From positions 1,302,001 through 1,366,000 of the forward strand of contig NZ_CALPBZ010000001.1 of the NCBI RefSeq assembly GCF_943181415.1: a DNA stretch of 64,000 nt, given 5' to 3'. This stretch comes from Microbacterium sp. Marseille-Q6648. GTDB lineage: Bacteria > Actinomycetota > Actinomycetes > Actinomycetales > Microbacteriaceae. Shown here piece after piece: positions 12,971 to 16,697 of this stretch. Position 1 is the stretch's first letter. Each line of letters begins with the position of its first letter. Below the pieces are notes generated by a model that was not told the origin of the DNA, made no database searches, and saw nothing but the letters and a program-made list of their open reading frames with translations. The position numbers were made by a program, and so were the translations under genes.

Positions 12971-14107
12971 ATGCCGACCGCACTGGGGATCGGGCGCGCG
13001 CGCAGCGACATCGATGTGATGTCGCGGGCCGGCCTGCCGCTTCACGAGTTCATGGACGAGGCCACGGCCGCCGTGGGCCGCGTCGTCCCGATGGCCGCGG
13101 CGTGCCTGTCGACGCTCGACCCGGCCACCTCGATGGTGTCGAGCACGCGCAAGATGGGTGATCTCGACGGCAGGAACGAGGACGATCTCACCTGGGCGCG
13201 CATCGAGTACGGCACGCCCGACCCGACGGCGATCGAGGCCATGGTGCGCACGGGGGTCGACGCGATCGGAGTCCGGGCAGCCCTGGGCGATCACCTGGAG
13301 CAGTCGGTCCGTATGAGCGAACTGCTCGTCCCTCGATTCGGCTATCACGACGAAGCCCGGGTGGTCTTCCGTGATCGACACGGCGCGTGGGGCGCGATCG
13401 CGATCTTCCGCGGCTCCGAGGACGCCGCGTTCTCGAACGATGAAGTCGCCTTCCTCGCCGACGTGGCCCCGTCGTTCACCCGCGGCATCCGCGCGGGACT
13501 TCTCGCGCAGCTGCGGCGCGCCGACGCTCCCGGCGACGTCGGCCCCGCGGTGATCATCGTCGACGCCGCCGGCTCGGTGCTGCAGACCAGCGCGGGCGCG
13601 AGCGCGCAGCTGGCCCGCATGGCGGACGTGCCGAACACCGGAGACCCGCTCACCATCGTCTACGCGCTCGTCCACGCGGCGCACCGCTTCGCCCGCGGCG
13701 ACATCGATCGGATGCCGCGGGTGAGGGTGCGCACGACCGACGGCGTGTGGCTCGTGCTCCACGCCTCGCCGCTCTCGGGAGTGCTCGATCGGGCCGGTGA
13801 CGTGGTGGTGACGATCGAGGAGGCCCGCCCGCAAGAGGTCATCGGCCTCGTCGCGGACGCGTTCGGGCTCACCGCGCGCGAGCGCGACGTCACCGGCATG
13901 GTGCTGCGCGGCGCCGACACGAAAGAGATCGCCGCCTCGATGCACGTTTCGCCCTACACGGTGCAGGACCATCTGAAGTCGATCTTCGACAAGGCCGGCG
14001 TCGCGAGTCGGCGGGAGCTGGTCTCGCGCGTCTACTTCGATCAGTACGTCCCGCGGTGGGGCGACGCCGTGGCCGCCGACGGCTGGTACGCCCGAACTGC
14101 GTCCTGA
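12971..14107 (+). CDS. LuxR family transcriptional regulator with sensory N-terminus
   Basis: A 378-residue regulator. The C-terminal LuxR helix-turn-helix covers residues about 298-357 (FGLTARERDVTGMVLRGADT, then SPYTVQDHLKSIFDKAG). The N-terminal 290 residues form GAF/PAS-like folds: a first block with VRMSELLVPRFGYHDEARVV and FRDRHGAWGAIAIFR, and a second around VIIVDAAGSVLQTSAGASAQ. The ligand is unknown. No receiver Asp or NB-ARC motif is present, so it is not a NarL- or MalT-type protein. It is divergent from the FAD oxidase, its likely target, across a region with nested dyads. Confidence 0.85.
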   Translation: MPTALGIGRARSDIDVMSRAGLPLHEFMDEATAAVGRVVPMAAACLSTLDPATSMVSSTRKMGDLDGRNEDDLTWARIEYGTPDPTAIEAMVRTGVDAIGVRAALGDHLEQSVRMSELLVPRFGYHDEARVVFRDRHGAWGAIAIFRGSEDAAFSNDEVAFLADVAPSFTRGIRAGLLAQLRRADAPGDVGPAVIIVDAAGSVLQTSAGASAQLARMADVPNTGDPLTIVYALVHAAHRFARGDIDRMPRVRVRTTDGVWLVLHASPLSGVLDRAGDVVVTIEEARPQEVIGLVADAFGLTARERDVTGMVLRGADTKEIAASMHVSPYTVQDHLKSIFDKAGVASRRELVSRVYFDQYVPRWGDAVAADGWYARTAS

Positions 14108-14127
14108 GCCGGGCGGAGGCACGGCCG

Positions 14128-14256
14128 TTAGACTGGGCACCCCCTATCGCGAAGGAATCCCCCCGTGAACCGCCGCAGCCATTCCGGGTCGTCGTCCGAC
14201 GACCCGGGACATAGTCGCCCTTTCACTGAACACCCCGCCTCGCAGGCGGTGACCCC
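14128..14256 (+). promoter_or_regulatory. Structured leader upstream of CNNM/DUF21 operon
   Basis: A TAGACT -10-like box at 14129-14134 would start a transcript near 14141. The leader then contains a perfect eleven-base inverted repeat (14184-14194 with 14197-14207) and a second hairpin CCGCCT-CGC-AGGCGG (14235-14249). The right arm of the second hairpin is the AGGCGG that should serve as Shine-Dalgarno for ATG 14257, so folding would hide the start site. A 32-codon upstream ORF overlaps both hairpins. It does not match the M-box or other metal riboswitch sequences that I can recall. Regulation of a metal-transport operon by ribosome position or ligand is inferred. Confidence 0.5.
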
Positions 14257-14263
14257 ATGGTGA
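14165..14263 (+). CDS. Candidate leader peptide (uORF) of CNNM operon
   Basis: GTG 14165 opens a 32-codon frame whose TGA (14261-14263) overlaps the start of the CNNM gene at 14257. The product is Ser/Asp/His/Pro-rich (for example SSSDDPGHSRP) and unlike any known protein. Translation through it would melt the hairpin that covers the downstream ribosome binding site. Its own ribosome binding site is weak (GGAATCC...). Leader peptides are known to control Mg2+ transporters (MgtL, CorL), but similarity of mechanism here is inference. Confidence 0.35.
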   Translation: MNRRSHSGSSSDDPGHSRPFTEHPASQAVTPW

Positions 14264-15684
14264 CCGCCGTTCTGCTCCTCCTCGTCGGCCTCCTCGTCAT
14301 CGCGCTGATCATCGCCGCGAACGGCTACTTCGTCGCACAGGAGTTCGCCTACATGTCGGTGGACCGCTCACGGCTGCGGTCTCGCGCCGACGGCGGCGAC
14401 CGCGCCGCACAGCGCGCGCTGGCGGTGACGAAGCGGACGTCGTTCATGCTGTCGGGCGCCCAGCTCGGGATCACCGTGACCGGTCTGCTCGTCGGCTATG
14501 TGGCCGAGCCGCTCGTCGGCGAGGCCCTCGGCGTCCTGCTCGGAGGCGTGGGAGTCCCCGCCGCCATCAGCGTGACGGTGGGCACGGTGCTCGCCCTGGC
14601 CGTGGCGACGATCGTGCAGATGATCTTCGGGGAGCTCTTCCCCAAGAACCTGGCGATCGCAGCCCCCGAGCCGCTCGCGCGATGGCTGGCCCGCTCCACC
14701 CTCATCTACCTCGCCGCGCTGGGGTGGCTGATCGTCATCTTCGACAAGTCCTCCAACGCCCTCCTGCGGCTCATCCACGTCGAGCCGGTCCACGACGTCG
14801 ACAGCAGCGCGACGGCGAAGGACCTGGAGCGCATCATCGAGGACTCCCGCCAGAGCGGCGATCTGCCCGAGGAGCTGTCGATCATGCTCGACCGGATCCT
14901 CGACTTCCCGGATCGCGACGTGGAGCACGCCATGGTGCCGCGCGCGTGGATCGACGCCGTCCGGCCCGATCTGTCGCTCGCCGACGCGAAGGTCCTGATG
15001 GCGCAGGCCCATTCGCGGTACCCGGTGATCGGCGAGAACGACCAGGCGGTCGGGGTCATCCACCTGACCGACCTGCTCGACACCGCCCTGCCCGAACAGG
15101 CACCGGTCCGGCAGATCATGCGGGAACCGCTCGTCCTTCCCGCGCTCATGCCGCTGCCGGTCGCGCTCGAGGAGCTGCTGGCCACGCGCAATGAGATGGC
15201 GTGCGTCATCGACGAGTACGGCGGCTTCGCCGGCATCCTCACCGTCGAAGACATCGCAGAAGAGCTGGTCGGAGAGATCACAGACGAGCACGACAGCGAC
15301 AACTTCACCGGCATCGATGTGCACGGCGACGACACCTGGACGATCGACGGTGACGTGCACCTCGACGAGGTCGAGCGCGCGATCGGCCACGATCTGCCGC
15401 GCGGGGACTACGAGACCGTCGCGGGGCTGCTCATCGCCGAACGCGGGGACTTCCCCAAGCCGGGCGACCGCATCACCATCGCGCTCCCGGTGGCCGCCGC
15501 CGAGATCATCGACGACGACCCGATGATCACGCTCGTCGGCGTCGACGTCCGCGAGGTCGACCGGCACGTCCCGAGCCTGATCGACGTGTCGCTGCGGAGG
15601 CAGTCCGCGGCCGCCACGGAGGACGAGGACATCGAGGCACCAGAAGTCCACGAGACGCTCGACGAGGAAGGGGGCGAGCGATGA
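14257..15684 (+). CDS. CNNM/CorC-type membrane protein (DUF21-CBS-CorC_HlyC)
   Basis: A 475-residue inner-membrane protein of the hemolysin C/CNNM family, members of which export Mg2+ or affect Co2+/Mg2+ balance. A DUF21 domain with about four membrane segments covers residues 1-190 (including VQMIFGELFPKNLAIA). A CBS pair follows (about 215-345; HSRYPVIGENDQAVGVIHL and EYGGFAGILTVEDIAEELVG), and then a C-terminal CorC_HlyC domain (WTIDGDVHLDEVERAIG). Length and domain order are complete. It overlaps the next DUF21 gene by four bases (ATGA) and sits behind a structured leader. Confidence 0.92.
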   Translation: MVTAVLLLLVGLLVIALIIAANGYFVAQEFAYMSVDRSRLRSRADGGDRAAQRALAVTKRTSFMLSGAQLGITVTGLLVGYVAEPLVGEALGVLLGGVGVPAAISVTVGTVLALAVATIVQMIFGELFPKNLAIAAPEPLARWLARSTLIYLAALGWLIVIFDKSSNALLRLIHVEPVHDVDSSATAKDLERIIEDSRQSGDLPEELSIMLDRILDFPDRDVEHAMVPRAWIDAVRPDLSLADAKVLMAQAHSRYPVIGENDQAVGVIHLTDLLDTALPEQAPVRQIMREPLVLPALMPLPVALEELLATRNEMACVIDEYGGFAGILTVEDIAEELVGEITDEHDSDNFTGIDVHGDDTWTIDGDVHLDEVERAIGHDLPRGDYETVAGLLIAERGDFPKPGDRITIALPVAAAEIIDDDPMITLVGVDVREVDRHVPSLIDVSLRRQSAAATEDEDIEAPEVHETLDEEGGER

Positions 15685-16697
15685 GCCCCGTCGTCGTGAC
15701 GGTCGTCACCGCCGCGCTCATCGTCCTGAGCGCGTTCTTCGTCGTCATCGAGTTCGCCCTGCTCGGGGCACGACGGCACCGACTCGAGGAGCAGGCCGAG
15801 CGGAGCGCGTCAGCTCGCGCAGCCGTCCGCGGCATGAACGAGCTGACCGTCATGCTCGCCGGCGCGCAGCTGGGCATCACCGCGTGCACCTTCGCGCTCG
15901 GCGCCGTGACCAAGCCCGCGGTGGACGCGTGGCTGGGACCGGTGTTCGCCGGGTGGGGAGCTCCCGAGTGGCTCGCCGGCGGCGCGGCGTTCGCCCTGTC
16001 GCTGCTGTTCGTCACCTTCCTGCACCTCGTCGTCGGCGAGATGGCGCCCAAGTCCTGGGCCATCGCGCACCCCGAACTCGCGGCGCGCATCATCGGCCTG
16101 CCGGCACGCGCGTTCATCTGGCCGTTCCGCCCGCTGCTGCTGTGGATCAACCACATCGCGAACCGTCTCGTCGCGCGCGTCGGGATCGAACCGGTCGAAC
16201 GTGCCGCGGCGGGCGGGCACGACGCCGACACGCTGCGGCACCTGGTGGAGTACTCCACCGAGGTCGGAGTGCTGGAGCCCGAGATCACCTCGCACATCTC
16301 GCACGCGATCGAGCTCCAGACGCTCACCGTGGCCGACATCGTCCGTCCGGATGCCGCCCCCACGGCCGTGGGCACGGACGCCACGCTCGCCGATGTACGC
16401 CAGGCCGCCGCGCGGACGAAGCACCTGCGCATCCTCGTCCTGGCGGGCGCGGATGAGCGGCCGGGCGTCGTGCACGTGCGCGACACCCTGCTCGAACCCG
16501 CGGACGCTCTGGTCGGCACACACCGCCGGGACGCGCACATCGTCCGCCCCGACGCCCCCGTGCACGAGGTGCTCCGCGACATGCGGGAGCGCGGCATGCA
16601 GCTGGCCGTCGTGATGGACGACGGCCGCATGACGGGTGTGGTCACGATCGCCGACATCATCGCGCGCGTCCTCCCCCGCCAGAGCACGGCCGCCTGA
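15681..16697 (+). CDS. DUF21-CBS membrane protein lacking CorC domain
   Basis: A 338-residue second member of the CNNM family. It has the DUF21 membrane domain (LSAFFVVIEFALLGARRHRL at the start, HLVVGEMAPKSWAIAHP near residue 120) and a CBS pair (residues about 210-335), but stops where the C-terminal CorC_HlyC domain would begin. Such shortened partners are common as the second gene of actinobacterial pairs, and the two proteins may form a heterodimer. The ATGA overlap with the upstream gene means coupled translation. The TGA stop forms the loop of a hairpin terminator. Confidence 0.9.
   Translation: MSPVVVTVVTAALIVLSAFFVVIEFALLGARRHRLEEQAERSASARAAVRGMNELTVMLAGAQLGITACTFALGAVTKPAVDAWLGPVFAGWGAPEWLAGGAAFALSLLFVTFLHLVVGEMAPKSWAIAHPELAARIIGLPARAFIWPFRPLLLWINHIANRLVARVGIEPVERAAAGGHDADTLRHLVEYSTEVGVLEPEITSHISHAIELQTLTVADIVRPDAAPTAVGTDATLADVRQAAARTKHLRILVLAGADERPGVVHVRDTLLEPADALVGTHRRDAHIVRPDAPVHEVLRDMRERGMQLAVVMDDGRMTGVVTIADIIARVLPRQSTAA

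Follow-up and report, generated by a model that had tools for sequence, protein, structure and literature searches.

Overlapping acidic leader peptides upstream of CNNM-type genes as candidate ribosome-based sensors for putative Mg2+ exporters

The closest described counterparts of the leader considered here are uORFs of Mg2+-related genes and small ORFs of mycobacteria. The mgtA leader peptide MgtL carries an acidic/proline-containing N-terminal sequence, EPDP, and is associated with ribosome drop-off at low Mg2+ (PMC11282234), and mgtQ contains the acidic codons Asp2 and Glu5 (PMC8092293). As cited in PMC12421838, YoaL overlaps mgpA/yoaE, and replacement of its start codon by a stop codon lowers MgpA translation; the same source cites an IRD sequence said to lie in the N-terminus of CorC (YbeX). 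Mycobacterial leaderless or RTGA-coupled small ORFs have been proposed to feed ribosomes to the gene that they overlap (PMC4633059). Among the papers listed by a literature search, no title or abstract apart from those on YoaL dealt with a uORF before the CNNM genes studied here, a provisional result with subscription papers and preprints outside its scope.

The window (the whole 64,000-nucleotide stretch of Microbacterium sp. Marseille-Q6648 DNA that was analysed) contains a uORF lying in front of a CNNM/CorC-domain gene, for whose product Mg2+ transport is putative. The following features, all on the plus strand, were assigned.

14129 to 14134, plus strand: -10-like hexamer TAGACT, the presumed leader promoter (read from the sequence)
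14152 to 14156, plus strand: Shine-Dalgarno sequence AAGGA of the uORF (sequence; SD score 5.5)
14165 (GTG) to 14263 (TGA), plus strand: uORF of 32 codons with the acidic motif SSSDDPGHS (ORF translation, relatives)
14184 to 14207, plus strand: hairpin 1, a perfect 11-bp stem over the SSSDDP codons (inverted repeat, recoding rank, covariation)
14198 to 14206, plus strand: codons Asp12-Asp13-Pro14, the proposed ribosome-destabilising motif (conserved in a set of relatives)
14210 to 14215, plus strand: CATAGT, which encodes His (CAT) and Ser (AGT) by rare codons (retained in relatives)
14235 to 14249, plus strand: 6-bp hairpin CCGCCT-CGC-AGGCGG over the CNNM ribosome-binding site (read from the sequence)
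14245 to 14268, plus strand: competing hairpin GGCGGTGACC/GGTGACCGCC, spanning the start codon of CNNM (folding, inverted-repeat search)
14257 to 15684, plus strand: CNNM gene 1 (CNNM + CBS + CorC_HlyC), putative Mg2+ exporter (domain matches)
15681 to 16697, plus strand: CNNM gene 2 (CNNM + CBS), its start overlapping the gene 1 stop (domain matches)

The layout given in the original prediction was borne out. TAGACT is present as the -10 box, and a consensus scan of positions 13900-14400, which also requires a -35 element, returned neither a promoter nor a terminator. The perfect eleven-base hairpin was recovered by the inverted-repeat search (arms 14184-14194 and 14197-14207, 2-nt spacer), as was a second hairpin over the CNNM Shine-Dalgarno sequence (arms 14245-14254 and 14259-14268, 90% complementary), accompanied by the competing 6-bp stem. 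The 32-codon uORF, with the predicted peptide VNRRSHSGSSSDDPGHSRPFTEHPASQAVTPW, overlaps the CNNM ATG at 14257 with its TGA end (stop position +4), and its SD score counts five base matches and a bonus of 0.5 because the start is not TTG. The assignment to the CNNM family was upheld by matches of gene 1 to PF01595 (CNNM), CBS and CorC_HlyC. Genes 1 and 2 are joined by an ATGA overlap and were adjacent in all eight other genomes tested, which belong to four classes. A gene for a LuxR-family (GerE) regulator occupies 12971-14107 on the same strand, its end separated from the -10 box by 21 nt. Inspection by eye also led us to discard CATAGT as a second promoter, as its first -10 position is not T and no -35 element is present.

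Close orthologues of the CNNM gene (E of 1e-130 or better, among the matches listed) were present in 35 of 198 genomes of the genus, the own genome counted; Microbacterium suaedae (L123) also carries the gene. At E of 1e-120 or better, it was found in 20 of 249 genomes of the family (own genome and one genus-mate counted). At the same threshold the figure was 16 of 81 for Vibrionaceae-type genomes, 2 of 44 for the Halobacillus family, 5 of 99 for one Pseudomonas genus and 37 of 37 for one Rhodococcus-type genus. Plasmid relatives amounted to 2 and 8 records; the viral contigs searched contained none, and a search of E. coli genomes with the Klebsiella gene gave no match. A profile search of GTDB contigs confirmed at least 572 loci, the best 80 of which were kept and belonged to Actinomycetota, Bacillota, Alpha- and Gammaproteobacteria. 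The patchiness of this distribution suggests that the gene has spread horizontally. A DNA search with the leader revealed no leader homologue; its matches, in 28 of 58 genomes, were short, for the most part covered the CNNM start and carried no information on the leader.

The comparison of leaders was carried out on 165 distinct sequences, obtained from 184 by dropping 19 duplicates before counting. Also left out were three loci on truncated contigs (L201, L051 and L056, the last being represented by L074), the surplus loci L072 and L073, and the paralogues L057-L066. A uORF was defined as an ORF of 14-60 codons ending within -12 to +18 of the CNNM start, and the null consisted of 20 rounds of dinucleotide shuffling of the 140 upstream bases. 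An overlapping uORF was found in 163 of the 165 leaders, from Actinomycetota, Bacillota and Pseudomonadota, versus 48.7% of shuffles; since about half of the shuffled leaders have one too, the mere presence of a uORF is weak evidence. An SD score of at least 4 was reached by 120 of 165 leaders versus 16.2% of shuffles, and Asp or Glu stood at codon 2 in 80 of 163 uORFs versus 6.2% of uORF-bearing shuffles. The uORF stop fell at -2, +1 or +4 of the CNNM start in 141 of the 163. These counts come from sequences related by descent, with Rhodococcus, Vibrionaceae and the Microbacterium core clade heavily sampled, and for some core-clade rows (L018, L020, L022, L024, L032, L069) the automatic rule settled on a start further upstream or on a different frame; these rows were counted unchanged. 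When the 80 named loci were grouped by genus-level name, at least half of the leaders carried a uORF for all 40 names (78 of 80 leaders), a stop at -2, +1 or +4 occurred in some member of 33 names, and an acidic codon 2 in some member of 22 (13 of 23 actinobacterial, 0 of 5 Bacilli, 3 of 6 alphaproteobacterial and 6 of 6 gammaproteobacterial names). Codon 2 is not acidic in the Microbacterium core clade (MSxHRTSTDQEG), and the window uORF has its acidic pair at codons 12-13 instead. Under the same rule, the 30 long ORFs of the window, which include some probably spurious ones, had a uORF in front of seven (the present finding included) and an acidic codon 2 in none.

Substitution patterns pointed in the same direction, uncorrected pN/pS being lowest in the uORF frame in three clades: 0.43 versus 1.66 and 1.63 in the other frames in Rhodococcus (19 sequences), 0.47 versus 0.77 and 1.50 in the core clade (28 distinct sequences), and 0.61 versus 1.39 and, with a small contrast, 0.70 in Vibrionaceae (16 sequences). 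Judged from these sequence comparisons, the uORF is what is conserved in the leader, and the leader peptide is very probably translated and coupled to CNNM. A hidden ORF in the frame ending at the TAG of CATAG was rejected, as no start codon was common to the 16 leaders. Ten of ten uORF peptides had no match in Pfam or NCBIfam at E up to 1, such very short peptides being hard for profiles.

The peptides themselves fall into several types. The DDP at codons 12-14 of the window uORF agrees with the acidic/proline motif, within the first 30 or so codons, of MgtL-kind peptides. Its surroundings, GSSSDDPGHS, recur as GSSTDDPGHS in L010, GSSSDDPSHS in L039, AADDPDHSP in Cellulosimicrobium, SDPDHCC in Cryobacterium and TQDPDHCSQ in Halobacillus. 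Other uORFs carry STDQEGRSS (Microbacterium core), MDSDKPGPD (Rhodococcus), MDPNSSRLCN (Vibrionaceae) or MDPSPATHG (Pseudomonas), and likely homology of the uORF peptides is seen only within the DDPxH set. In this set, codon choice was conserved along with the residues. Four of 24 rows (L055, L126, L180, L181) were dropped because their frame was not that of the uORF; in the remaining 20, some of them close kin, His was encoded by CAT in 19, where codon usage in the CNNM genes would predict about three, and the Ser after it by AGT in 14 of 14. CATAGT was nearly invariant even in Cellulosimicrobium, whose CNNM codons have A or T in third position in only 2% of cases.

The universal Microbacteriaceae CNNM paralogue, approximately 36% identical, had been chosen as a negative control and failed in that role, as it proved to carry a uORF of its own; shuffles, synonymous recodings and the long ORFs of the window were therefore used as controls. 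In the own genome, the uORF of this second operon encodes MDDPPSCRRSPHRPSSRVIGGDV, ends in TGATG on the CNNM start and lies 10 nt after TACACT, from which spacing it is predicted to be probably leaderless. The 3.49-Mb genome contains a single copy of the signature of this uORF, ATGGAYGAYCCNCC (L210, C3:95283-95296, minus strand), before the second CNNM pair. The signature was present in 99 of 99 genomes of the genus, some with extra matches elsewhere, versus 16 matches of a reversed control pattern in the 99 genomes, and it lay 67-107 nt upstream of the CNNM match in all 63 genomes with comparable coordinates (the other 36 fell outside the comparison). An M[DE] uORF, by a permissive rule (at least 10 codons, ending within -80 to +30 of the CNNM match), was found in 40 of 40 upstream regions picked regardless of sequence, and 38 of these began MD[DE]P; MDDPP itself was present in eight of the first ten second-operon loci. 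Across the class, 7 of 20 second-operon regions had an M[DE] ORF, three of them judged weak. Inspection by eye of second operons in other actinobacterial families revealed acidic or PSHSP-like uORFs in four further regions, L265, L266, L268 and L270 (MPSPDIPSHSP, MSTPPDDPPS, MKDSDDAGCSS and MKSSDDAGCSS). In the MDDPPS set (49 sequences), Pro4 was encoded by CCT in 39 of 48 and Ser6 by an A/T-ending codon in 47 of 47; in eleven CNNM genes taken for comparison, CCT accounted for 7 of 235 Pro codons and A/T-ending codons for 19 of 280 Ser codons. We infer that slow wobble decoding just after the acidic residues would prolong a vulnerable state of the ribosome; pairing of CCUCC with the downstream ribosome-binding site is an alternative explanation for the Pro4 CCT.

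The folding of the whole leader carried no constraint beyond that of the peptide. The window leader was only modestly more stable than its shuffles, with a folding z of -1.73 and 13 of 200 shuffles folding equally well, and its z against synonymous recodings was +0.19. Against 100 recodings, mean z was 0.02 in the DDP group (20 leaders), -0.19 in Rhodococcus (28), +0.13 in gammaproteobacterial leaders (26) and +0.73, that is, weaker than the recodings, in the mixed others (54); the core clade (35) alone leaned to stability, with a mean of -0.76. Hairpin 1 behaved differently and is constrained in a sub-clade. Its segment ranked third among 1000 synonymous recodings of the same peptide in the window, 1st in L076, 7th in L010, 9th in L079, 12th in L044 and 24th in L136, so that 6 of 20 segments fell within the best 5%. 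L039, L048, L109 and L117 ranked at 89-153 and L040 and L075 near 300; the eight segments that lack the GSS palindrome ranged from 261 to 974. In nine sequences picked for sharing the ungapped motif, 97.5% of cells paired, two pairs changed on both sides, and the covariation score was 0.176 versus 0.082 in shuffles, 1 of 500 of which scored as high. The palindrome could also be read as a DNA operator; the U-A, U-G and C-G types found at one of its pairs fit an RNA better than an operator.

In 122 of 163 leaders the CNNM ribosome-binding site was more paired than the average over ten shuffles of the upstream bases: 30 of 35 in the core clade, 28 of 28 in Rhodococcus, 18 of 18 in Vibrionaceae and only 46 of 82 in the mixed group that includes the window leader. 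The core-clade hairpin over this site was paired in 93.8% of cells; five of its eight pairs were invariant and one changed on both sides. Compensatory changes among relatives, on which the original prediction had staked its RNA, were thus found in two pairs of hairpin 1 in nine chosen relatives, and the same comparison was nearly uninformative for the ribosome-binding-site hairpin in this best-sampled clade, because five of the eight pairs never vary. In the Rhodococcus-type leaders L178-L207, the uORF contains a nearly invariant arm, GCCGGACAC, able to pair with GTGTCCGGC at the CNNM ribosome-binding site; the middle of the uORF is variable.

Taken together, the leader of the window may be read as encoding a peptide of the MgtL/MgtQ kind that destabilises its ribosome and is coupled to the translation of a putative Mg2+ exporter. 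Ribosomes initiating at the uORF would reach Asp-Asp-Pro, set in an mRNA hairpin, and then the rare codons. The acidic/proline nascent chain would destabilise the ribosome, more so at low Mg2+, by intrinsic ribosome destabilisation. A surviving ribosome would melt the hairpins over the CNNM ribosome-binding site and terminate on the CNNM start codon, and CNNM would therefore be translated by coupling; if the ribosome aborted, the site would stay closed. Synthesis of the putative exporter would accordingly take place at high Mg2+. We infer translation, ribosome drop-off, the Mg2+ signal and the direction of the switch from this comparison with described systems: Mg2+ sensing by an acidic uORF from what is reported on MgtL (PMC11282234) and mgtQ (PMC8092293) and from the discussion of CorC and YoaL (PMC12421838), and the sign from the uORF overlap together with reported roles of CNNM/CorC proteins in efflux, which make a switch that is on at high Mg2+ the most likely one. 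For the mechanism as a whole, our confidence stops just short of an even chance. Conserved overlapping uORFs, acidic/proline motifs and, in a sub-clade, hairpin 1 are what the comparison of relatives established. Between the two modes of control first envisaged, ribosome movement or a ligand, the evidence favours ribosome movement (near-universal uORFs, lowest pN/pS in their frame, compensation in hairpin 1) and does not support a ligand. Slightly more tentatively, overlapping ribosome-aborting leader peptides may govern CNNM/CorC exporters in at least three phyla, as SDDPxHS, MDDPPS, MDPNSSxLC and MDSDKPGPD types that arose or were rebuilt several times, with the acidic/proline motif, the wobble-read rare codons and, in some clades, a hairpin setting the drop-off threshold and efflux being switched on when ribosomes are intact, as a mirror image of MgtL/MgtQ.

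An mgtQ-like attenuator would have the opposite sign: an aborting or slow ribosome would shift stems 1:2 and 3:4 to 2:3, which would free the CNNM ribosome-binding site and turn the gene on at low Mg2+. The three mutually exclusive pairings of 34 core-clade leaders match the layout reported for mgtQ (PMC8092293), with CCUCC/GGAGG formed in 165 of 170 cells, GAGGG/CCCUC in 170 of 170 and the ribosome-binding-site hairpin in 255 of 272. This layout comes from the Microbacterium core clade only, most of its pairs hardly vary and so offer little covariation, and no matching 2:3 pairing was seen by eye in the window. Moreover, several CNNM/CorC proteins are tied to Mg2+ efflux (PMC12421838), a role that does not call for induction at low Mg2+. 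We consider the attenuator an unlikely reading. Plain translational coupling, with a uORF that merely brings ribosomes to a closed CNNM start site and senses nothing, agrees with the preferred stop positions and with the RTGA coupling described in PMC4633059. We consider it doubtful as a full account, as the acidic/proline motifs of different uORFs and the near-invariant rare codons would be left unexplained.

The leader peptide might also work by stalling the ribosome instead of by drop-off, in response to a cue such as EF-P or ABC-F activity, a drug that acts on ribosomes, or a metal other than Mg2+. In favour of this possibility, DPP provides a context for stalling at proline. The action of the ABC-F factor EttA on acidic motifs (PMC11282234) is likewise in its favour. 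The linkage to CNNM in three phyla points to ion homeostasis instead, and RAPP/RGPP is absent from the window peptide and was not seen by eye in the uORF peptides of relatives; we therefore hold a different cue to be distinctly improbable. The original prediction had suggested that the leader may be a new cis-regulatory RNA. A ligand-binding riboswitch or other cis-regulatory RNA acting without the peptide would fit the compensatory changes of hairpin 1 in nine sequences and the conservation of CATAGT at the nucleotide level. Rfam gave no match in the window at the gathering score, in line with the original prediction, which recognised no known Mg2+ or Mn2+ riboswitch, and only a tmRNA (L112) in 20 relatives. 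Since the whole-leader fold is not selected beyond the peptide in either the window or the 20-member group, and 8 of 20 segments, from several genera, keep the peptide motif without hairpin 1, such an RNA appears very improbable. The tmRNA gene lies at L112 277-636, upstream of the CNNM leader of Jeotgalibacillus campisalis.

In sum, the CNNM uORF has the look of an ion sensor built on the ribosome, and not of a new riboswitch. Two CNNM operons with different leaders are preceded by uORFs of one logic. If the proposal is true, sensing of Mg2+ through ribosome stability, described for importers of enterobacteria, would also apply to exporters, and to those of Actinomycetota, Bacillota and Pseudomonadota. 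It is also a warning that a structured leader matching no known riboswitch may be a leader-peptide device.

Among the described systems, the mycobacterial leaderless/RTGA small ORFs (PMC4633059) are likewise actinobacterial and resemble the MDDPPS uORF; they differ from the CNNM uORFs in that no case of ion sensing or CNNM was noted in that paper, in whose main text "magnesium", "Rv2366c" and "Rv1842c" have 0 occurrences. CorC/YbeX belongs to the same protein family, and its motif sits in the CorC protein itself, not in a separate uORF. The CorC N-terminus encoded by E. coli K-12 ybeX (L208), MSDDNSHSSD, is similar to SDDPSHS, a motif found in uORFs of distant bacteria; this likeness may be coincidental. 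As in YoaL of E. coli and Salmonella (PMC12421838), the stop of the window uORF overlaps the start of a CorC-domain gene, and E. coli YoaL begins with Met-Asp (MDRHRRHFS); unlike the window uORF, YoaL has 52 codons and no DDP-type motif, and the gene downstream encodes TerC-CorC rather than CNNM. With MgtL the window peptide shares an acidic/proline motif, although MgtL operates through Rho-dependent transcription termination instead of overlap and controls an importer (PMC11282234), in the reverse direction to the proposed CNNM switch. The uORF mgtQ of Salmonella mgtB (PMC8092293) is similar in being a short ORF with acidic codons before a Mg2+ transporter gene, with the ribosome-binding site in a stem-loop and control at the level of translation. 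It differs in having 8 codons, an intergenic position and alternative stems, with no evident sequence similarity, and in that destabilisation of the ribosome turns an importer on (PMC8092293), the opposite of what is proposed for CNNM.
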